A DNA stretch of 56,919 nucleotides from Spirochaetaceae bacterium. GTDB lineage: Bacteria > Spirochaetota > Spirochaetia > DSM-27196 > SLAA01. The stretch is taken from the NCBI GenBank assembly GCA_003556605.1, contig PWQX01000264.1, forward strand, positions 1 to 56,919. The letters run 5' to 3'. The first letter of the stretch is position 1. Every line of letters begins with the position of its first letter. The notes under the pieces are model-generated. The model ran no database searches and had not been told where the DNA came from. It saw only the letters and a program-made list of their open reading frames with translations. The position numbers were made by a program, and so were the translations under genes. Shown here piece after piece: positions 32,511 to 44,229 of the stretch.

Positions 32511-33685
32511 TTATTCTGCTCTCAATGTGCGCATTCGCCGGTAGATTCCCCCGCTCTCGAGCGTATCGTGCAACTCGCGACGGAGATCCTTATTATCCTG
32601 AAGCGCACGCCGTCCGGCTTCGTCGGGGAAAACGTATTCCTCACTGTGACCGCTGAGACTTTGATAAGCCTGCAGGTGATCAGGATACACACCGAGGTTC
32701 ACCGTTGCGCTAATCATCGCCCCGAAAGCGGAGGCTCCTGGAACAGCGCTTAAACGGACCGGAGTATCGAACGAATCCGCCTGCATTTGATTAAATAATG
32801 CTATCCGTGTCAAACCGCCCGCCACGGCAACTTCACTTATATCACCGCACTGTTCCACGAGCAGGTCGAAGTTCATGCCGAGCTCCCTCGCGATAGACTC
32901 TAATACTGCTCGGGCCATGTCGCTTCGCGTTGTAGAGAGGCCGATATTCGCGATAATTCCCCGTGCATCGGCGTTCCAGAACGGCGCAGCAGCACCGGCA
33001 AAATGAGGTAATACCACTACTCCGTTGGATCCCACCGGTGATTGCGAGGCGATCTCGTTTAACCGCTCCATGTCGGCCTTCTGCACATCGCTTTGGTCTG
33101 CATCGCCCGGACCATCTCCCGCGCCGCGCCCGCTTCCGATCTCTCTCGCAAACCATTGATACACGATCCCGGTAGTGAGTATTCCGGCTCCGGCCATCCA
33201 TTTACCCGGCGCCCCTGCAGCGCTACAGAGTGTCCGCATCTCGGGATGAAATACCGGCCGTTCCACGGGAGTAATCAGAAACGATCCGGTGCCCGTATTC
33301 GCTACTGCAGTCCCGGGGTCAACAATACCCATGCCTACGGCAGACCCATGCCTACGGCAGCCAGCTGCTGATCTCCGCCTGCGAGAACTACAGGGACTCC
33401 GCTGGGGGATCCGGTTTCTCGCCTCAACGCAGCTGTTGTTGCGCCGATCCGTGCACCCGGTTCGACGGCATCGGGCAGTTTGTTTAACGGAACCTCAAGC
33501 TCCCGGAGAATCTCACAATCCCATCTCAGTCCGTTAATGTCAAACAGCAGCGTACGCGATGCCTGAGAATAATCCGTACAATACGAGCCGGTCATGAGGT
33601 ACGCGACGTAATCCTGAACTCCCAGCAGCCGTGAGCATGCGCGCAGCACATCGGGCGCATGCTGCTGCAGCCACATCGCGCATTC
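32511..33685 (-). pseudogene. FGGY-family carbohydrate kinase, N-terminally deleted and frameshifted
   Basis: Two frames carry one kinase. The upstream part (33335-33685) has LLGVQDYVAYLMTGSYCTDY, SRTLLFDINGLRWDCEI and VPVVLAGGDQQLAAVGMG; the downstream part (from 33332) continues MGIVDPGTAVANTGTGSFLI, LPHFAGAAAPFWNADARGII and VAVAGGLTRIALFNQMQAD. The shift comes from an exact 17-bp tandem duplication at 33327-33360; removing one copy restores the reading frame. The N-terminal ATPase part (~125 residues, including the DxGTT/S motif) is absent, replaced in frame by the end of a dehydrogenase. An aldonate or ketose phosphorylation role is likely for the ancestor. Confidence 0.8.
33327..33360. 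repeat. Exact 17-bp tandem duplication in the kinase pseudogene
   Basis: ACCCATGCCTACGGCAG occurs twice head to tail (33327-33343, 33344-33360). 17 is not a multiple of three. The stop of the upstream half arises directly from the repeat. The perfect identity suggests a recent event. Confidence 0.95.
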
Positions 33686-34506
33686 CGGACGATCAAGCAC
33701 TTCCGGATTCACCAGGAAACGCGGGGTTCCGTCACGGAACAACCTTGCGATATCTTCCATCAGCAGGAACGGAGAATTCGTGAGTGCTTCAGTGGTCGTC
33801 CCGGCGATATGCGTTGTCAGAGTAACGTTGTCCAGCTCACGCAGCTTGCTCTCTGCCGGTAACGGCTCGGTGGGAAAAACATCAAGGCCGGCGCCGGCGA
33901 TCTTTCTCTCGGCTAATGCGCGTTCAAGTGCATCTTGGTCAATCAGCCCGGCGCGACCGGTATTAATGAGGTACGCGGTGGGTTTCATTTGACTCAGCTC
34001 AGCTTCACCTGAAATCCGGAGAGCTTTCTAGCCACGAGTTGTCCGATATGCCCGAGCCCGACAATGCCCACAGTTTTCTCCTTGAGCTCAGGGATCCAGC
34101 TTGAGTTTGAGAATTCCTTGCGCCAGTCGCCGTTCTTAATCGACAAGTGGGCGCGAGCGATGTTACGAGCTTCGGCGAGATTGACGTTCTCCAGCCCAGC
34201 CCTGCATACGCCGACCACGCGCAGATCCGGCATCGACTCGAGGACGGTCGCGGAAACTGGAACAAACAGCCCTAACAGCACCTCGGCATCCGCTGCTTCA
34301 GCAACCTCTTGGGGAACCGATTCGATCTCCGGGCCGTTCTTCTCGACTTCCAGCCGGCGGTATTGCAGCTTGTCCCAATCCGGCTCCCATTCCCCAACCA
34401 CGGCTGTCTCTACGAACTCAGACAAACAGCGCTCAAACGCCGGAGCAAATAGCTTACTTGGAATCATTGCGTCACCGAGTATAAGCGCCTTGTGTATTGG
34501 TTTCAT
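33686..34506 (-). pseudogene. D-2-hydroxyacid dehydrogenase broken by deletions
   Basis: The N-terminal frame (33994-34506) reads MKPIHKALILGDAMIPSKL, VVGVCRAGLENVNLAEARNI and ELKEKTVGIVGLGHIGQLVA (Rossmann motif GLGHIG), then stops at GFQVKLS. Sequence resumes in another frame at MKPTAYLINTGRAGLIDQDA, LTTHIAGTTTEALTNSP and runs into the kinase at about 33686. Two gaps are apparent against the family (~345 residues): about 35 residues between VCRAGLENVN and LAEARNI (in frame), and about 55-60 residues between the Rossmann fold and MKPTAYLIN (out of frame). Phosphoglycerate-dehydrogenase-like enzymes of this type are common in sugar-acid loci. Confidence 0.8.
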
Positions 34507-34735
34507 GTAAGTCTGCTTTCCCTTAATGTTGTTGCTTCCGGCCGCCGGCGCTCAAGATTGTTTGACCCTGTGCCGACCTCCCGCGCTAAGCTCAATCGTA
34601 CATTGAACGCTGACAATGTCCACGATCATGAACTGAATGATGCGCCGGAGCAGTGCGGCGGGCCGATCCGGCTGGATCATAGTAAGAAAATGCGGTATCC
34701 TCAGACGCACCACTAGCAAAGAGACCGGTAATCAA

Positions 34736-36517
34736 ATGGCACCACTTCGAAAAACCCGTATTGTATGCACCTTAGGCCCGACGGTCGGAGACCAGGAGAA
34801 GATCGCCGCCTTGATCCGCGCCGGGATGAACATCGCGCGCTTCAATTTTTCGCACGGGGACCACAGCGAGCATCGTAGCCGGCTTGAGATGGTTCGAGCG
34901 GCCTCGGCGGATGCCGGAACCCCCATCGCTACGATGCTCGACACAAAGGGACCGGAAATTCGTACCGGGATGATTCGCAATGATGAGAAGATCCGACTTA
35001 TTCCGGGCAACGAGATCATTCTCACCACCGATGAGATTGAGGGAACCGCCGAACGGCTCAGCATCAGTTACAAGGAACTGCCGTCGAAGGTTAAGATCGG
35101 TGGTCACATCTTTATCGCCGACGGCTTGATGGACCTAAAAGTCGAAGCGGTTGAGGGCAACGACATCCGCTGCAGGATACTCAGCGGCGGTTCGCTTGGA
35201 AGCCGCAAGAACGTCAACGTGCCGGGAGTGCGCACCTCTTTGCCGGCGATGACTGCCAAAGACCAGGCCGACATACTGTTTGCAATTGAGAACGACATGG
35301 ATTTCATCGCCGCCTCGTTTATTCGCAAACCCGGCGATGTCGAGGCAATGCGCGAGTTCATCGATTCACATGAATCACCGATTCAGCTGCTCTCGAAGAT
35401 TGAGGACCAGGAAGGGCTCGACAATATCGACGAAATCATTCGGGTGTCCGACGGCATCATGGTTGCGCGCGGCGACCTCGGTGTGCAGCTTGAGCTCGAA
35501 GAGATCCCGATGGCGCAAAAGCGTATCATCGAGAAGTGCAACCGCGAGAACAAGCCGGTTATTACCGCAACCCAAATGCTGGACTCAATGATCCACAACC
35601 CCAGCCCTACACGCGCAGAGCTTACCGATGTGGCAAATGCGATTTTCGACGGCACCGACGCAGTGATGCTCTCGGGCGAAACCGCCAACGGCGCATACCC
35701 CATTCGCTCGGCTGAGACTCTCAACCGCATTGCACTGGCGGTGGAGGGCTCCGACGAGTACCGTAAGCGCTGTGCCGAGTACTTTTCGTTCCACAGCCCT
35801 TCGCACGACATCGGTCACAGCGTAGCAAAAGCCGCTTTCGTCGTCGCAGCCGACGTCAACGCTGCGGCGATCGTGACGCCGAGTCTGCGCGGCAACAGCC
35901 CCCGGATCCTCAGTAAGTTCCGGCCCATGCAGAACATCATCGCTGTGACTACCTCTGAGCGCGTGTGCCGGCAATTGCTGATTGTTTGGGGCGTGTGTCC
36001 GATCGTGACAGGCCACGTACGCGACTCGGAGCTCATGATACAGAACGCTCTGCGTATGGCGTTGAAATACGGTTACGTGCAGCGCCTCGACAAGGTCGTC
36101 ACCGCCGCCGGAATACCGGTCAACTCACCCTTGATGATGAACACCATCAAGGTGCATTTCATGGCCAAGATACTGAACCGGGGACACGTTGGCTTCGGCG
36201 CTGCGTGCTCCGGAAGAATTGTGAAACTGACCGGGGCGCAACAGGCGGTAAGCAAGCTCGAGGGCATTGAGACACCGCAAATTCTGCTGGTCCGCGCCCT
36301 CACCCGCGCGTACCTGCCGGTTTTGCGTAATGTCCGCGGGGTGATCTCCGAGAGCCGCGTTGAGCTCCGCGACTCCGAGATTCAAGCGGCTAATCCCGAG
36401 CTCGTGATGATCTCAGAGGTGCCGGAGGCCTATGAGCAGTTTGAAGACGGCTCGTTTGTCAGTCTGAACGGTGAAGAAAAAATTGTGTACGAAGGGTTGC
36501 TACCCGACGGTGCCTAG
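34736..36517 (+). CDS. pyk: Pyruvate kinase with an extra C-terminal domain
   Basis: 593 residues from the ATG at 34736; the longer frame from 34637 adds a non-family Arg-rich stretch. Core motifs: KTRIVCTLGPTVGDQEKIAA, MNIARFNFSHGDHSEH, MLDTKGPEIRTGMI, the catalytic-lysine region IQLLSKIEDQEGLDNID, GIMVARGDLGVQLELEEIPM and VMLSGETANGAYPI. The C-terminal ~110 residues resemble the PEP-utiliser-like mobile domain seen in Bacillus-type enzymes (ending FVSLNGEEKIVYEG), but I see no TSHA-like histidine, so it is probably structural. It catalyses phosphoenolpyruvate + ADP to pyruvate + ATP. It stands just before the NifA-like regulator, transcribed in the same direction. Confidence 0.95.
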   Translation: MAPLRKTRIVCTLGPTVGDQEKIAALIRAGMNIARFNFSHGDHSEHRSRLEMVRAASADAGTPIATMLDTKGPEIRTGMIRNDEKIRLIPGNEIILTTDEIEGTAERLSISYKELPSKVKIGGHIFIADGLMDLKVEAVEGNDIRCRILSGGSLGSRKNVNVPGVRTSLPAMTAKDQADILFAIENDMDFIAASFIRKPGDVEAMREFIDSHESPIQLLSKIEDQEGLDNIDEIIRVSDGIMVARGDLGVQLELEEIPMAQKRIIEKCNRENKPVITATQMLDSMIHNPSPTRAELTDVANAIFDGTDAVMLSGETANGAYPIRSAETLNRIALAVEGSDEYRKRCAEYFSFHSPSHDIGHSVAKAAFVVAADVNAAAIVTPSLRGNSPRILSKFRPMQNIIAVTTSERVCRQLLIVWGVCPIVTGHVRDSELMIQNALRMALKYGYVQRLDKVVTAAGIPVNSPLMMNTIKVHFMAKILNRGHVGFGAACSGRIVKLTGAQQAVSKLEGIETPQILLVRALTRAYLPVLRNVRGVISESRVELRDSEIQAANPELVMISEVPEAYEQFEDGSFVSLNGEEKIVYEGLLPDGA

Positions 36518-36567: not shown

Positions 36568-38133
36568 GTGGACAAGAACACCATCCCTGCGACGGATTAT
36601 AAGCGCAATCTCGAAGAACTCTCGCTGCTGTTCGAAATCAGTCAGCTTCTCGATCAGAGCATGGAAATCAAACAGGTGGTGGTGCCGGTTCTGAAGGCGG
36701 TGACCGACCATCTGAATACCTTGCGAGCGACCCTCACGCTGCTCAATCGTGACACCGGCGAAATCCTGATCGAGGAAGCCTACGGACTGTCAGATACCGA
36801 ACGCGAACGCGGCCGCTATAAGCTCGGCGAAGGCATCACCGGGAAAGTAGTTGAGTCCGGCCAACCACGTGTTATTCCGCGCATATCAGAGGACCCGGCG
36901 TTTCTAAATCGCACCGGAGCGCGACGGAGTCAGAGCTGCAAGGACATCTCGTTCATCTGCGTGCCGGTGAAGATCGGCAACGAGCCTATAGGGGCGCTGA
37001 GTGTAGACCGCATGTCTGCCGGAGAATCCAAACTGCAGGACGATCTTCGGGTGCTCTCGGTCATTTCTTCCTTGATCGCGCAGGCCGTAAAAATACGCCA
37101 AGAAGCGCTTGAGGAGAAGGAGGAGCTGCTGCGCGAGAACACCCGCTTGCAGCAGCAACTGCGCGAGCGCTTTCGGCCGGCAAACATCATGGGCAAGTCT
37201 AAGGCGATGCAGGACGTGTTCGACTTGGTTGCACAGGTTTCGACGAGCGACGCTACCGTACTGGTCCGCGGGGAGAGCGGAACCGGCAAGGAGCTTGTGG
37301 CACAAGCTATCCATTACAACAGCCCGCGCAGCAAGAAGCCCTTCGTGAAAGTCAACTGCTCGGCATTACCCGAGACCGTGATCGAGAGCGAGTTGTTTGG
37401 ACATGAGAAAGGCGCTTTCACCGGTGCAAGCGCAACCCGCAAGGGCCGCTTCGAGATTGCGAACGGCGGAAGCATCTTCCTCGACGAGATCGGCGACTTG
37501 TCGGCAACTACTCAGATAAAACTGCTTCGTGTTCTCCAAGAAAAGGAGTTTGAGCGCGTGGGGGGAAACCAGACCATCCGCAGCAATGTTCGTATTATTG
37601 CCGCCACCAACCGCAACCTCGAAGAGCTCATGGAACAGAATGTCTTCCGCTCTGACTTGTATTACCGCTTGAACGTCTTCCCGATTCACATCCCACCGCT
37701 GCGCGATCGCCGCAGCGACATCCTGCTGCTGGCTGATTACTTCGTGGACAAGTACGCACGCCAGAATCACAAAGCGATCCGCAGGATATCGACTCCGGCT
37801 ATAGACCTCTTGATGGGCTACCATTGGCCGGGCAATGTACGCGAGCTGGAAAACTGTATTGAACGCGCCGTCCTGCTGAGTGTCGATGAGGTCATCCATG
37901 CACATCACCTTCCCCCTACCCTGCAATCGGCTGAGTCAACCAACACGCGGCCGCAAGGCAAGCTGGAGGAAGCGTTGAACGGGGTTGAGCGCGAATTGCT
38001 CATGGATGCGCTGAAGTCTACCAAAGGCAACATGGCGAAGGCCGCCCGCATGCTCGGAATCACCGAACGCCGAATGGGTCTGCGTGTGCAGAAGCACGGG
38101 ATTGACCCGCACACTTTCAAGACGCCGAGCTGA
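36568..38133 (+). CDS. NifA-type sigma-54-dependent activator (GAF-AAA+-HTH)
   Basis: 521 residues; GTG with ACGGAGG upstream. GAF domain at ~15-175 ([20 protein letters not shown]), a coiled-coil linker ([20 protein letters not shown]), then the AAA+ core: Walker [18 protein letters not shown], the sigma-54 contact loop [13 protein letters not shown], Walker [32 protein letters not shown], and a Fis-type HTH ([18 protein letters not shown]). The N-terminus and C-terminus resemble NifA closely, so it probably senses nitrogen status and turns on nitrogen genes, though no nif genes lie here. The next gene is glnE-like, supporting a nitrogen role. Confidence 0.88.
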
Positions 38134-38251: not shown

Positions 38252-41200
38252 ATGAACACTGATATGGAACGCTTTATCGACGTCCCGACGGTCGAGCAAC
38301 TGAGGCCTTACTGCCCGGCGCTCAGCGAGGAGGAACTGGAGGCATTCCTGCGTGCCTTTCCTGAACGGTTCTATACTCGGACGCCGGCAGCGCAGATCGG
38401 GCATTACGCGAGCAGGCTCGCCGAGCTGCGACCGGATAACCCCTACGTCCTCGAGATCCAGGAGCTCGCTGATGAACGGGTCACCGTCACGTTCTACTCA
38501 TACGACTATCCGGGAGAGTTCTCGCTACTCGCCGGGATGCTCGCAGCCTGCGGGTTCAATATCGAGAGCGGTACAATCTCGACCTCCAAACCACCGGAGC
38601 TGGACCGTGAGCCGGGCGCAGCGCGAGTGAAGCACAAGCCGGGCAGCGCGCTCAGGGGCGAAGCCCGTCACGGCTCTCGCCCGCGCGGGCGCATAGACAA
38701 GCGCCTCACCGCCCGGCAGTTTCGGCGTGTCCTCGCCGGCGATTCGCCGCGGCGCACCATCATCGATACCTTCACCGGGCGCATCAACGCCGAACAAGGC
38801 CCTGACTGGTCTCAACACTTCACCGAGTATGTCGACAGCGTGATGCCTCTGCTGACGCAGAATACTCAGGAAGCGTTTGATGAAGCCAAACGTCTGGTCA
38901 ACGAGTACGTGGCTGCAGCGCTCTCGCGCACCGCAATCAGCTCCGAAGCGCTGCTATATCCGGTGGATGTGCAACTCGGCCAAGCCGAAGAAGGCTACAC
39001 GCGGCTCACAGTCATTTCCACTGATACGCCGTTCTTCCTCTACGCCCTCAGCACAGCCTTTGCACTGCACGCGTTGTCAATTGAGCAGGTTGAAATCCGT
39101 ACGCACGGCGAACAGATTGAGGACATCTTTGATCTGCTTGACGCAAACGGACAACCTATTCGCGATGAAGAAATGCTGCAGCAGGTGAAATTCTCGGCAG
39201 TCTTCACGAAACAGTTCACCTATTTCCTTGACCGGGCGCCCGACCCCTACACGGCGTTACTGCGCTTTGAGACTCTGCTGCAGAATGTCCGTCCGATGGC
39301 CGACACTATCAGCGAAACTAAGCTTCTATCCGATCCCAAAGTGCTAAAAGACCTTGCACGGCTGCTAGGTGCAAGCGATTTTCTCTGGGAAGACTTCATT
39401 CGGCTGCAGTATGAAACCCTCGTTCCGGTGCTAACGCGTGCCCGGCAAGACCGTTTGGTCAGCACGCCGCCCGAGGAGCTGGCGCAGCGGCTCCATGAGT
39501 TGCTCGACGACGCCGACTCCCCCGAAGCCGAACGCCGTGTACTCAACGAGTTCAAGGATCAAGAGACCTATCTTATCGACCTAGATCACATCCTGCACCC
39601 CGAGCTGGATTTTTTCTTTCTCAGCTCCCGCCTGACTACTCTCGCCGAGACGGTTGTGAGAACCGCGGTTGAGCTCGCGTCTCGAGAACTGGCGGCCCGC
39701 TACGGCGTTCCCCGAACCGCAGCGGGGCTCCGCGCGCCGTATGCAATTCTGGGCCTCGGAAAGCTCGGCGGGCAGGCCTTGGGCTACGCTTCCGACATAG
39801 AACTGATGTTTGTGTACAGCGACGACGGCGAGACCGACGGCGCCGAGGCGATCACGAATCGCGAGTTTTTCGAGCGTTTGTTTTCCGACGCGGTGAGCAT
39901 GATTGATGCGAAACGCGAAGGCATTTTCCAAGTAGATCTGCGTCTACGCCCACACGGCTCGGCCGGACCGCTCGCGGTGAGCATCGCGAGCTTCATTCGG
40001 TATTACTCCAACGACGCAAGCAGCCTCGAGAAGCTGGCCTTAGTACGTCTGCGGCCGATCGGCGGTGATGACCCGCTCGGCGCCCAGATTGAACGACTGC
40101 GCGATGAGCTCTTGTACGGCGCCGACAGTATTGACCGTGCCGAGCTCAAGCGGTTGCGCGCAATCCAACTGAAAGACAAAGGCGCGGCCAACCGCCCCAA
40201 CGCCAAGTTCAGCCCCGGCGGCTTAGTGGATCTGGAGTACTCGGTGCAGATCCTCCAGATTGTCCACGGGCGCAGCAATGTTGCGCTTCGAACGCCGGGC
40301 ATTCACCAGGCGCTCCGCGGGCTTGCGGACTCGGGTGCAATAGAGCCGGAAGAAGCGCAGCAGCTCGTTCAGGCCTACCGATTTCTGCGGACCGCGATCA
40401 ACGGCCTTCGAATGCTGCGCGGTAACGCGCAAGACCTGTTCTTACCCGCTCTTGACTCCATGGAATACATCCACCTCGCACGCCGCGCCGGTTATCAAGG
40501 CAAAGGCGAGCTCACGCCGGCAGCACAGTTGCACCTGGAGTTCGAGACAACCACGGCGCTGGTCCGTGCTTTCGTAGAGCGTGAGCTCGGCCGCGACGCG
40601 ATTCCGCACGACGGCGTTGCCGGCCTCGCCGACCTGGTCCTTGCCGACAGCAATCACGCCGCCACCCGGCTCGATGTGCTTGAGCGCCTCAGCTTTCGCA
40701 ACCCCGAGCGCGCGCTCGGCAATCTGCGGCGTCTCGCCGGCGCACGCGACCAGGCGTACCTGTTCGCCGAGCTTGCGGTGCTTGCGGCCGACTTGCTCCC
40801 GCGCACCCCCGACCCGGATATGGCGCTGAACAATTGGGAGCAGTTCGTCCGGCAGTTGGACGATCGCGAAGCGCACTACCGCGGATTGCTGCTGCAGCCC
40901 AAGCGCTTTGAAATCATGCTCCTGATTTTTGCCGGCAGCCAGTTTCTTGCCGACACCTTGAGCACGAATCCGCAGTTCTTGGAGTGGGTCACCACACCGA
41001 AGATCGTATCAAGCGTGCGGCGGCGCGAGCACCTGGCCGAGGAGCTCCGCCGGTTACGCGGAGCCCAACCCGAGCGTGACGCATGGCTCGCGGAGCTGCG
41101 CGATTTCCGGAAACGCGAGATCCTCCGGATCGGTACCCGTGACATCTGTCTGCGCGTCGACCAAACCGAGATCTTCACTGAGCTCACTAACCTTGCGGTG

Positions 41201-42112
41201 AGCATCGTTGCGGCGGCCTTGGACGCGGCCTGGCAAGGGTTTGAGCACGAGCCGGAGGATCGGCTGCGGTTCTGTTTATTGGCATTCGGCAAGCTCGGGG
41301 GACGTGAATTGAATTACAGCTCAGACATAGACCTGCTTGCGATCTTCGACCCGCGACAGTCGCCTCCATCCGAGCGCGAGAACACGCTGTACGCGCGGGT
41401 AATGCGGCGCTTGCGCTCGGACCTGTCTGACCATACCGAAAACGGCTACCTCTATCGGGTAGACCTGAGGTTGCGCCCGTTCGGAAGCTCAGGTCAGATT
41501 GTGCATTCGTTACCCGCGATGGTGAGATACTACAACGGGTCTGCAAGCTACTGGGAGTATCAGGCGCTGTTGAAGCTTACGCCGCTGGCCGGGAATCTCC
41601 ACGTCGGCGACCGGTTCTTGCAAGCGGTGCGGCCGGCGCTGCTGTCCGCCGGGGCCCGTACTGAGTCGGCCCGAGAGTCGGTGTTGGCGTTGCGGCGTGC
41701 CGCAGTTGCGCGCAGCTCGCCCGATGATGTGAAATCCGGCGAAGGTGGCATCCGCGACATCGAGTTTCTCGTGCAGGCGCTGCAGCTCATGCATGCTCGT
41801 CGCGCGCCGGAGCTCCTGAGCCCAAACACACTTACAGCGCTTGCCGAGCTTGAAAAACACGCGGTCCTTGACGCCGAACGCTGCCGGGTGCTTCAAGCCG
41901 ACTACCTGTGGCTGAGGCGCCTAGAGCATTATCTACAGATACTTGAAGATAGGCAGGTTCACAGCATCCCGAAGGATCCGGCGGGAAAGCTAACCCTCGC
42001 TCGCCGCCTGTTGGGCAATTCCTCCGATGAAACCGCGCTGCTGGAACAGCTGCATACTGTTCGCTCGCGAGTGCGCGATACGTTCAACCAAGTCTTGCAG
42101 AACGCTTCTTAG
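38252..42112 (+). CDS. glnE: GlnE-like glutamine synthetase adenylyltransferase with N-terminal ACT-like pair
   Basis: 1286 residues from the ATG at 38252, against ~950 for typical GlnE. Two nucleotidyltransferase domains are visible: near residue 500 (GLGKLGGQALGYASDIELMF) and near residue 1010 (AFGKLGGRELNYSSDIDLLA), the deadenylylating and adenylylating halves in GlnE order. Each is followed by the family's FQVDLRLRPHGSAGPL or YRVDLRLRPFGSSGQI and GGLVDLEYSVQ or GGIRDIEFLVQ motifs. The first ~300 residues are extra and contain two ACT-like segments (VTVTFYSYDYPGEFSLLAGM at ~77; YTRLTVISTDTPFFLYALST at ~249), as in GlnD. The first domain has DxE rather than DxD, which the superfamily tolerates. 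Confidence 0.88.
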   Translation: MNTDMERFIDVPTVEQLRPYCPALSEEELEAFLRAFPERFYTRTPAAQIGHYASRLAELRPDNPYVLEIQELADERVTVTFYSYDYPGEFSLLAGMLAACGFNIESGTISTSKPPELDREPGAARVKHKPGSALRGEARHGSRPRGRIDKRLTARQFRRVLAGDSPRRTIIDTFTGRINAEQGPDWSQHFTEYVDSVMPLLTQNTQEAFDEAKRLVNEYVAAALSRTAISSEALLYPVDVQLGQAEEGYTRLTVISTDTPFFLYALSTAFALHALSIEQVEIRTHGEQIEDIFDLLDANGQPIRDEEMLQQVKFSAVFTKQFTYFLDRAPDPYTALLRFETLLQNVRPMADTISETKLLSDPKVLKDLARLLGASDFLWEDFIRLQYETLVPVLTRARQDRLVSTPPEELAQRLHELLDDADSPEAERRVLNEFKDQETYLIDLDHILHPELDFFFLSSRLTTLAETVVRTAVELASRELAARYGVPRTAAGLRAPYAILGLGKLGGQALGYASDIELMFVYSDDGETDGAEAITNREFFERLFSDAVSMIDAKREGIFQVDLRLRPHGSAGPLAVSIASFIRYYSNDASSLEKLALVRLRPIGGDDPLGAQIERLRDELLYGADSIDRAELKRLRAIQLKDKGAANRPNAKFSPGGLVDLEYSVQILQIVHGRSNVALRTPGIHQALRGLADSGAIEPEEAQQLVQAYRFLRTAINGLRMLRGNAQDLFLPALDSMEYIHLARRAGYQGKGELTPAAQLHLEFETTTALVRAFVERELGRDAIPHDGVAGLADLVLADSNHAATRLDVLERLSFRNPERALGNLRRLAGARDQAYLFAELAVLAADLLPRTPDPDMALNNWEQFVRQLDDREAHYRGLLLQPKRFEIMLLIFAGSQFLADTLSTNPQFLEWVTTPKIVSSVRRREHLAEELRRLRGAQPERDAWLAELRDFRKREILRIGTRDICLRVDQTEIFTELTNLAVSIVAAALDAAWQGFEHEPEDRLRFCLLAFGKLGGRELNYSSDIDLLAIFDPRQSPPSERENTLYARVMRRLRSDLSDHTENGYLYRVDLRLRPFGSSGQIVHSLPAMVRYYNGSASYWEYQALLKLTPLAGNLHVGDRFLQAVRPALLSAGARTESARESVLALRRAAVARSSPDDVKSGEGGIRDIEFLVQALQLMHARRAPELLSPNTLTALAELEKHAVLDAERCRVLQADYLWLRRLEHYLQILEDRQVHSIPKDPAGKLTLARRLLGNSSDETALLEQLHTVRSRVRDTFNQVLQNAS

Positions 42113-42115
42113 CCT

Positions 42116-42601
42116 TCATTCCGTCCCGCCCGGTGTATCGCGATTCGATTGCCGGCCGTCAGTGTCAATAGCGTGGTCGTTGCGCGGCTGTTCACCGAGC
42201 TGGCGCGAAAAGCGATGGCGGCGCTCGTGCTCGGCACGCGCTTGGATTTCGGGGAACTCGTAGCTCATCATCCCACGGTCATCTACCTCCATACGAACGC
42301 GCGCGTTATCCACAAGGCTCTGCAGCAACTCTTCGGATTCATCGACACTCAGCCCGGTCTCAATCACGACATCCGAGACGGTAACACGCCCTCCGAGGCG
42401 GTAAGCTAGCTTAAACACCCGCGACTGCAGGACCGCCGGGTGATATAGCGCAGGGTCGTGATGGCCTCTATACAGGGGTTCACCGTCAAGGTACGGGCTG
42501 CGATCCGGACGCTGTTGCACCGAATAGAAGAGACTCATCCCCGCGCGGACCGCCAGGACCGTGAGCAGCAGAGGAAATAAGAATAGAAATGGACCAAACA
42601 T
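42116..42601 (-). CDS. Single-pass membrane protein with a winged-helix-like domain
   Basis: 161 residues from MFGPFLFLFPLLL (ATG 42601); the longer frame adds 19 residues that delay the hydrophobic start. One N-terminal membrane segment is followed by a polar linker and a compact domain (VFKLAYRLGGRVTVSDVVIE to RVRMEVDDRGMMSYEFPEI) that looks like a winged helix of the kind that reads 'ETGLSVDESEELLQSLVDN'. The last ~30 residues are polar and charged. Family not recognised. It is convergent with glnE (3 bp apart). Confidence 0.55.
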   Translation of the reverse strand: MFGPFLFLFPLLLTVLAVRAGMSLFYSVQQRPDRSPYLDGEPLYRGHHDPALYHPAVLQSRVFKLAYRLGGRVTVSDVVIETGLSVDESEELLQSLVDNARVRMEVDDRGMMSYEFPEIQARAEHERRHRFSRQLGEQPRNDHAIDTDGRQSNRDTPGGTE

Positions 42602-42732
42602 GTACACGCGCTCCACCCCCAACACCAAAAGTATACTACGACCCTGGAATGAAATCAAAACCCTCTTGAGCTGTAGCGTATGGTATCGTTTCTGCAGCCA
42701 TTCGAGTCCCGGCGGGCCTGCCGGTGTCGCTT

Positions 42733-44229
42733 TCAGGGCTCATGAGGCCGGGTTATTGGGGGATCCCCGGCCGACAACGCTTCCCGAAACCGTGAGTACA
42801 GGCGACGATAGGTGTGGTAACCGGTAGTGTAAAGGCCGTGCACCTCATTCGACGGCTCGTAGCGTTGTTTTAGCGTAACCAGCTGCTCGGAGGCCTCAGT
42901 GACCGAGCCGAACTCACCGAGACCGGTGAGCGCAGCGCAAGCGTCACCCACCAGCTCGGCGTCTTCAACACGGGGAACTTCAATCGGCACCCCAACGATA
43001 TCACTCTTCATCTGGTTCCAGACGGCGTTTTTCGCTTGGCCGCCGCACGCCGTCAAGCTCCGGACCTCGCACCCATGCTCGCGTAGAATTTCAACCGCTT
43101 CGCGCACCGCAAACCCGATTGAATCCACCACCGCGCGGCCCATTTCGGCAGTTCCATGCTGCGCGCCGAGCTCAATAAACATACCCCGACTGAACTCCCA
43201 GGCGGCCCCCTGGTGGATTGACGGAAAGAACCACGGCTTCTGCGTGCGATGCGCCACACGCTTGATTTCGTTGAGCATCTGATCGTATGGGAGTCCCTCC
43301 TGTCCTGAGATACGTCGAAACCATTCGAATAGCCGGCCGGTTGAGGAAAGAATGCCGGCAACATTGTAGAATCCGGGAACCACATGCGGCAGACAGCGGA
43401 TTTGCGCGGTTGTTACCGGGGTTTCCGAACAATGATTTATGCCTTCCGAGGTCCCGGCGCGATCGCAGGTACGTCCCGGTACAATCGTCTTGGTCCCCAA
43501 CAGGCTGATCAGAAAATCATGTCCGGCGGCGCACACCGGCACACCCACGCGCAGCCCGAGGTACCCGGACGCCCTGGAGCTCACCCGGCCGATGCGATCA
43601 CCGATGCCGATGAAGGGCGGGAAGAGCTCAGGATCAAGATCGGCCGACCGCAGTTGTTCCGGCGTCCAAATGTAGCGGGAAAACTCTTCGCTCTGGCTGA
43701 TCGTCACCGCCTCGCCGGTAAGAAAGAATGAAACGAACTCGGGGCACGACAAAAAGTAGCGCGTACTTTCGAACAGTCTTGGATGCGCGCTTCGAAACCA
43801 CGCCACCTTCGGCAAAAAATAGGACTCACCGGCAACCGGCTCGCTCTCGTGCGTCTCCAACCACATTAATGCGTGTGACAGCGGTTCGCCGTCATGATCG
43901 AGCGGAATCACGGTTGGGCCGTGTCCGCTGACCGCGACCGCACTCAGCGTCTCTAAGAGTGTACGGGGCATACGGTCGAGCATGATTTGCAGCACGCGAA
44001 CCCAGGTCTTCGGATACCAGCGCGTGCTGTCGTGTTGATGTGCGAGAATGCGCTCGCGATCCCACCACAGCAACTCACCGCTGGTATCAACGCAGCCCAG
44101 CTTAACCGAGGTAGTGCCGACATCAACGCTCAAAACAAAGGTTTTTTTAGGCCGATGATTGCTCAAGATCGATTCCGCTACGCCGTGGGTATAGAGCTCA
44201 TGCCGCGAGCGTGCGTGCAACGCTATCAT
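42733..44229 (-). CDS. FGGY-family carbohydrate kinase, intact
   Basis: 498 residues. N-terminal ATPase motif VLSVDVGTTSVKLGCVDTSG is complete, with SGHGPTVIPLDHDGEPLSHA, a substrate-domain WLETHES motif, FSRYIWTPEQL, the second-domain AGHDFLISLLGTK and ACGGQAKNAVWNQMKSDIVG (adenosine binding). It phosphorylates a pentulose, polyol or related sugar; xylulokinase-like, substrate undetermined. The start is uncertain: the first ~22 residues are unlike the family, and a TATGAT box overlaps the first ATG. It is divergent from the BMP transporter operon, 92 bp away, suggesting a common substrate. Confidence 0.85.
   Translation of the reverse strand: MIALHARSRHELYTHGVAESILSNHRPKKTFVLSVDVGTTSVKLGCVDTSGELLWWDRERILAHQHDSTRWYPKTWVRVLQIMLDRMPRTLLETLSAVAVSGHGPTVIPLDHDGEPLSHALMWLETHESEPVAGESYFLPKVAWFRSAHPRLFESTRYFLSCPEFVSFFLTGEAVTISQSEEFSRYIWTPEQLRSADLDPELFPPFIGIGDRIGRVSSRASGYLGLRVGVPVCAAGHDFLISLLGTKTIVPGRTCDRAGTSEGINHCSETPVTTAQIRCLPHVVPGFYNVAGILSSTGRLFEWFRRISGQEGLPYDQMLNEIKRVAHRTQKPWFFPSIHQGAAWEFSRGMFIELGAQHGTAEMGRAVVDSIGFAVREAVEILREHGCEVRSLTACGGQAKNAVWNQMKSDIVGVPIEVPRVEDAELVGDACAALTGLGEFGSVTEASEQLVTLKQRYEPSNEVHGLYTTGYHTYRRLYSRFREALSAGDPPITRPHEP

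Follow-up and report, generated by a model that had tools for sequence, protein, structure and literature searches.

The window (the whole 56,919-nucleotide stretch analyzed here, contig PWQX01000264.1) belongs to the draft genome of a Spirochaetaceae bacterium (GCA_003556605.1; G000; 99.42% complete, 4.38% contaminated, 296 contigs). It contains a gene, here called ACT-GlnE, in which a GlnD-type sensor tail precedes two GlnE catalytic halves. This gene and its surroundings have the following features.

34637..36517, forward strand: pyruvate kinase, a neighbor conserved in close relatives
36568..38133, forward strand: NifA-like sigma-54 activator (GAF, AAA+, and Fis HTH domains; Pfam, NCBIfam), directly upstream of ACT-GlnE
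38252..42112, forward strand: ACT-GlnE, GlnD-type sensor tail plus two GlnE catalytic halves, 1286 aa (open reading frame, Pfam/NCBIfam, AlphaFold, hhalign)
38291..38437, forward strand: helical linker, aa 14–62, homologous to the HD-to-ACT segment of GlnD (model, profile-profile comparison)
38480..38857, forward strand: ACT domain 1 (ACT1), aa 77–202 (model, profile-profile comparison)
38585–38704, forward strand: disordered, length-variable insert in ACT1, aa 112–151
38999..39205, forward strand: ACT domain 2 (ACT2), aa 250–318, with the loop DTPFFLY (usually DxPGLL; Pfam, model, profile-profile comparison)
39542..40648, forward strand: first catalytic half, motif GLGKLGGQALGYASDIEL, read as adenylylating (AT) from trees that place it outside the AR clade
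41093..42103, forward strand: second catalytic half, motif AFGKLGGRELNYSSDIDLL, clustering in trees with the N-terminal halves of canonical GlnE, which deadenylylate (AR)
42116..42658, reverse strand: small protein lacking a Pfam match, a neighbor conserved in close relatives
42733..44229, reverse strand: FGGY carbohydrate kinase, a neighbor conserved in close relatives

The start of ACT-GlnE may be the ATG at 38264; the best alignment of relatives begins at MERF. Farther upstream, the reverse strand between 32511 and 34506 has a 2-hydroxyacid dehydrogenase-like frame (33994–34506), a frame with the apparent remainder of this dehydrogenase and kinase-like sequence (33335–33988), and a further kinase-like frame (32511–33332). 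Frameshifts or assembly errors may have split a single fused gene into these frames.

For the assignment to GlnE, Pfam searches of the 1286-aa protein identified two GlnE domains (2.2e-102) and two GlnD_UR_UTase domains, and the two PF03710 halves with the carboxylate motif SDxD/E that define GlnE are present. The scores against all three NCBIfam GlnE equivalogs matched fall under their cut-offs (493 against 625, 460 against 487, and 392 against 724 bits). Because these models describe canonical subtypes, the scores indicate a divergent GlnE for which membership is still possible.

The earlier note on this DNA had pointed to about 300 extra N-terminal residues with two ACT-like segments ahead of both GlnE halves, and had regarded ordinary GlnE as free of ACT domains. 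Both points were borne out. The Pfam ACT match (aa 255–300, E 0.004) is weak and falls below the Pfam cut-off when taken alone, and the matter was settled by the relatives, among which the ACT domain was detected in 56 of 77 (best 6e-11), together with a profile-profile comparison. In hhalign, the N-terminal block matched a profile of 23 GlnD tails with a probability of 99.8 (E 8e-28, 234 columns), and the match is colinear through the post-HD linker, ACT1, and ACT2. The structure prediction that the note had proposed, in which the lack of an ACT fold at aa 70–300 would have counted against its reading, returned two ACT folds. The AlphaFold model of aa 1–321, based on an alignment of the 77 relatives, has a pLDDT of 88.3 and a pTM of 0.85 and consists of the helical linker followed by these two folds, with the disordered insert of about 40 aa in ACT1 located between the second and third strands. 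In Foldseek, the best matches to this model were ACT-bearing regions of L-GDH, the 180-kDa NAD glutamate dehydrogenase, followed by phosphoglycerate dehydrogenase (PGDH) and ACT-like domains. Chance ACT-like segments are ruled out by the two-ACT model and the GlnD-tail match. Among about 40 canonical GlnE proteins of Spirochaetota, Desulfobacterota, Pseudomonadota, and Actinomycetota, none matched the ACT-block or the GlnD-tail profile. The first ~320 residues of ACT-GlnE are thus confirmed as homologous to the entire post-HD tail of GlnD.

For GlnD membership, only the linker and tandem ACT tail are present in the window protein; the GlnD uridylyltransferase and HD domains were not found in ACT-GlnE. 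The NCBIfam GlnD model TIGR01693 has an E-value of 1e-19, with its strongest stretch at aa 225–308 (the second ACT domain of the model). This match is confined to the tail and to short segments within the GlnE halves, and its score of 26.6 bits falls below the cut-off of 519. ACT-GlnE shares with GlnD the two C-terminal ACT domains and the linker that follows the HD domain, in colinear arrangement, and differs from it in that this tail is N-terminal on a GlnE and that the HD domain and the GlnD catalytic arrangement are missing.

The order of the catalytic halves appears to be unusual. In canonical GlnE, the N-terminal half has the motif ELNFSSDID and the C-terminal half typically has SDLD, while the corresponding motifs of ACT-GlnE are ALGYASDIE in the first half and ELNYSSDID in the second. 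In a 42-row tree, the second half of ACT-GlnE joined the canonical N-terminal halves (98/96), and the AU test did not reject the ordinary order (p 0.166). In a 93-row tree, the same grouping was recovered (100/97) and the AU test rejected the ordinary order with a p-value of 0.026, which is optimistic because the tested group had been defined only after seeing a first tree. The first half lies outside the AR clade and is therefore read as the AT half; we infer from these placements which half performs which reaction. A single frame of G043 (L038:6301-11106) encodes a 1602-aa GlnE with the ACT pair between the halves (AR-ACT-AT), and the half that follows this pair is the sister of the first half of the window protein (100/100). 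This AR-ACT-AT protein is a possible intermediate architecture. In another genome (G032), pieces matching the same layout are found on two contigs. The alternative, an ordinary AR-AT order with the swap as a tree artefact, is doubtful and would be compatible with the function proposed below. It fits the test result of the smaller tree, the mixed diagnostic columns for half identity, and a neutral fold comparison, in which 1v4a and 3k7d (E. coli GlnE structures) matched both halves about equally and did not separate them. However, the larger tree and the G043 protein both argue against it, and ACT-ACT-AT-AR, swapped relative to canonical GlnE, is the likely order as judged from these sequence comparisons.

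The NifA-like gene is on the same strand as ACT-GlnE, 118 bases apart, and its product passes TIGR01817 (547.6 bits; cut-off 528.85) as NifA does. Unlike in the setting of NifA, nifH had no match above the cut-off in the source genome, so the NifA-like gene does not signal nitrogen fixation there. More likely, the product activates genes of general nitrogen metabolism, for example glnA. The only glnA of the genome has a perfect sigma-54 promoter, TGGCACGCTACTTGCA (TGGCACGCTACTTGC; L020:1127-1141), that begins 56 bases before the start codon, and the NifA-like activator may therefore drive glnA. No sigma-54 site was found upstream of the pyruvate kinase gene, between this gene and the NifA-like gene, or between the NifA-like gene and ACT-GlnE. 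In sister genera, the gene order is pyruvate kinase, NifA-like gene, amtB, PII, and ACT-GlnE. This order, together with the glnA promoter, supports the earlier suggestion that the NifA-like gene marks a nitrogen-control unit.

For the distribution of this architecture, GlnE matches were found in 29 of the 296 genomes of a Spirochaetota sample. GlnD was found in none of the 12 genomes with ACT-GlnE (the long form), compared with seven of the 12 carrying the ordinary form (p 0.005 in a Fisher test that ignores kinship). A scan of named genomes identified 233 relatives of ACT-GlnE. The best 80 of these are from Spirochaetota, Deltaproteobacteria, Lentisphaerae, Kiritimatiellia, FCPU426, Firestonebacteria, and Goldiibacteriota, and include a record of Delta proteobacterium NaphS2. 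At these best 80 loci, glnA lies near ACT-GlnE in 32 and a NifA-like gene in 25, and a YDLP-type motif is present in 33 of 38 glutamine synthetases near ACT-GlnE (the other five had no match, some being cut off). ACT-GlnE is a wide family, often adjoining glnA or a NifA-like activator. In the phylum of NaphS2, 62 of 148 genomes have GlnE matches, mainly of ordinary length with a few long forms. Full-length GlnD was found in 15 of 38 relatives' genomes tested, all 15 labelled Deltaproteobacteria, Desulfobacterales, or Desulfatiglandales; in the remaining genomes, the GlnD search recovered just the ACT-GlnE tail or partial matches. A strict replacement of GlnD across the family is ruled out by these 15 genomes, and the presence of full GlnD in deltaproteobacterial members means that the architecture cannot be viewed simply as a substitute for GlnD.

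Two other forms were observed. At L094:5356-9198, a stop codon after the first half splits ACT-GlnE into two frames. Three genomes (G060, G067, and G092; L046, L047, and L048) have a GlnE of ordinary length whose second half is very divergent, possibly another variant; in these genomes, full GlnD is absent and PII is present.

The GlnD-PII-GlnE relay is a textbook two-stage covalent cascade. Profile searches of the source genome identified one GlnE and one type-I glutamine synthetase, the latter reading DKDIYDLPP at its adenylylation site (DKNLYDLPP in E. coli). GlnD was absent in a search of this 99.4%-complete draft, and PII was absent at E ≤ 0.001 (best sub-threshold match E 0.007) in a search that was positive in 13 of 14 control genomes. 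With GlnD and PII both undetected above threshold, no intact canonical GlnD-PII-GlnE system was found elsewhere in the genome; the earlier note had said that the presence of such a system would count against its proposal of a one-protein glutamine sensor independent of GlnD and PII. For the source genome, this proposal also agrees with the predicted ACT pair and the single glutamine synthetase of adenylylatable type. It does not extend to the family, in which most relatives keep PII and the deltaproteobacterial genomes noted above also have full GlnD, and its glutamine sensing is a reading by homology. Independence from the GlnD-PII cascade thus holds for the source genome and not for the whole ACT-GlnE family.

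The C-terminal ACT domains of GlnD are held to sense glutamine (PMC3173338), and PII is uridylylated at Tyr51 by GlnD under glutamine control (PMC4285133). ACT-GlnE is probably a glutamine synthetase adenylyltransferase/deadenylylase that took over the glutamine-sensing tail of GlnD. At high glutamine, the ACT pair, immediately N-terminal to the presumed AT half, would bind glutamine, and the bound pair would shift the enzyme to adenylylate, and so switch off, glutamine synthetase. At low glutamine, deadenylylation by the other half would prevail. In the source genome, one protein would replace the GlnD to PII to GlnE relay. Where relatives have a PII lacking Tyr51, this protein probably contributes a 2-oxoglutarate/energy signal through binding, with no covalent modification. 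Both glutamine as the ligand and the direction of its effect are suggested by the homology to GlnD.

Alternatively, ACT-GlnE may be a dual-input enzyme that continues to take its main signal from PII and is only tuned by the ACT pair, the PII of the source genome having been missed in the draft assembly. Consistent with this, PII is present in 11 of the 12 ACT-GlnE genomes of the Spirochaetota sample, sister genera place it directly upstream of ACT-GlnE, and one genome of the same genus (G001; 8% contamination) has an amtB-PII pair on another contig. However, PII was not found in three other genomes of this genus (G002, G003, and G004) either. Moreover, in the source genome, G002, and G003 the NifA-like gene is directly followed by ACT-GlnE, such that the junction is closed up where sister genera hold amtB and PII. 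Given also the completeness of the source genome, the dual-input alternative seems unlikely. Among the relatives, most keep PII, often in the same cluster, suggesting that it may remain a second input there. In GlnD-less lineages with ACT-GlnE, the PII T-loop reads YRGV(E/D)IEV, YRGVQIEV, YRGVITEV, or YRGVKEV, all lacking Tyr51; an exception is G211, also without GlnD, in which YRGIAYEV keeps the tyrosine. The loss of Tyr51 fits a loss of uridylylation in lineages from which GlnD is gone. At deltaproteobacterial ACT-GlnE loci, the PII T-loop is YRGAEY with Tyr51, and these lineages have GlnD. In seven genomes of the same class (G094, G161, G165, G229, G255, G270, and G277), the PII matches lie inside open frames of 569–623 aa, which suggests that PII is fused to another protein.

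ACT domains bind many amino acids. A further alternative is that the ligand of the ACT pair is a different small molecule, or that the pair functions in assembly alone, in which case the enzyme would not be a glutamine sensor. The loops do differ from those of GlnD: the loop glycine is lost in ACT2 (DTPFFL) and unconserved in ACT1, where 31 of 77 relatives keep it, such that the ligand could differ from that of GlnD. In addition, deltaproteobacteria already have a separate GlnD that senses glutamine. Against this, the GlnD-tail match extends over both ACT domains as well as the linker, glutamine is the product of the substrate enzyme, glutamine synthetase, and most spirochaetal members, having lost GlnD and Tyr51, have no other known glutamine sensor left. 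Another ligand or a role in assembly alone is thus quite improbable, and glutamine sensing through the acquired GlnD tail is the preferred reading.

Compared with known systems, ACT-GlnE shares with the canonical GlnE of E. coli the two PF03710 halves, each with a helical GlnD_UR_UTase domain, and a type-I glutamine synthetase with a tyrosine target. It differs in the ~320 extra N-terminal residues with the GlnD-type ACT pair, the apparently swapped halves, scores under the cut-offs of the GlnE equivalogs matched, and a source genome without detected GlnD or PII. In an actinobacterial species studied, glutamine synthetase adenylylation is not governed by PII (GlnK), showing that a GlnE can function independently of PII (PMC3612183). 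The two actinobacterial GlnE proteins tested lack an ACT block, and the actinobacterial setting, unlike that of the source genome, includes GlnD and GlnK (PMC3612183, PMC4285133). In L-GDH and the plant ACR proteins, ACT domains resembling those of GlnD are attached to enzymes of nitrogen metabolism or act in their service; unlike ACT-GlnE, these proteins are not glutamine synthetase modifiers. A search of the open-access literature, with most subscription journals outside its scope, found no paper on a GlnE with ACT domains. To our knowledge, ACT-GlnE has not been described.

Taken together, ACT-GlnE is a known enzyme equipped with the input module of the regulator that usually acts upstream of it. 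We give about even chances to the broader reading that a GlnD tail fused to a domain-permuted GlnE (ACT-ACT-AT-AR) is a widespread, apparently undescribed one-protein glutamine-sensing switch, with the PII modification site lost in most of the GlnD-less lineages sampled and PII itself apparently lost in the source genome. A sequence search of the PDB found no GlnD structure, and the ACT-GlnE tail may offer a route to seeing how the GlnD sensor works. If true, the one-protein version would make the glutamine input measurable on a single purified enzyme. It would also show how a two-stage covalent cascade can collapse, and explain how many GlnD-less bacteria may still read glutamine.
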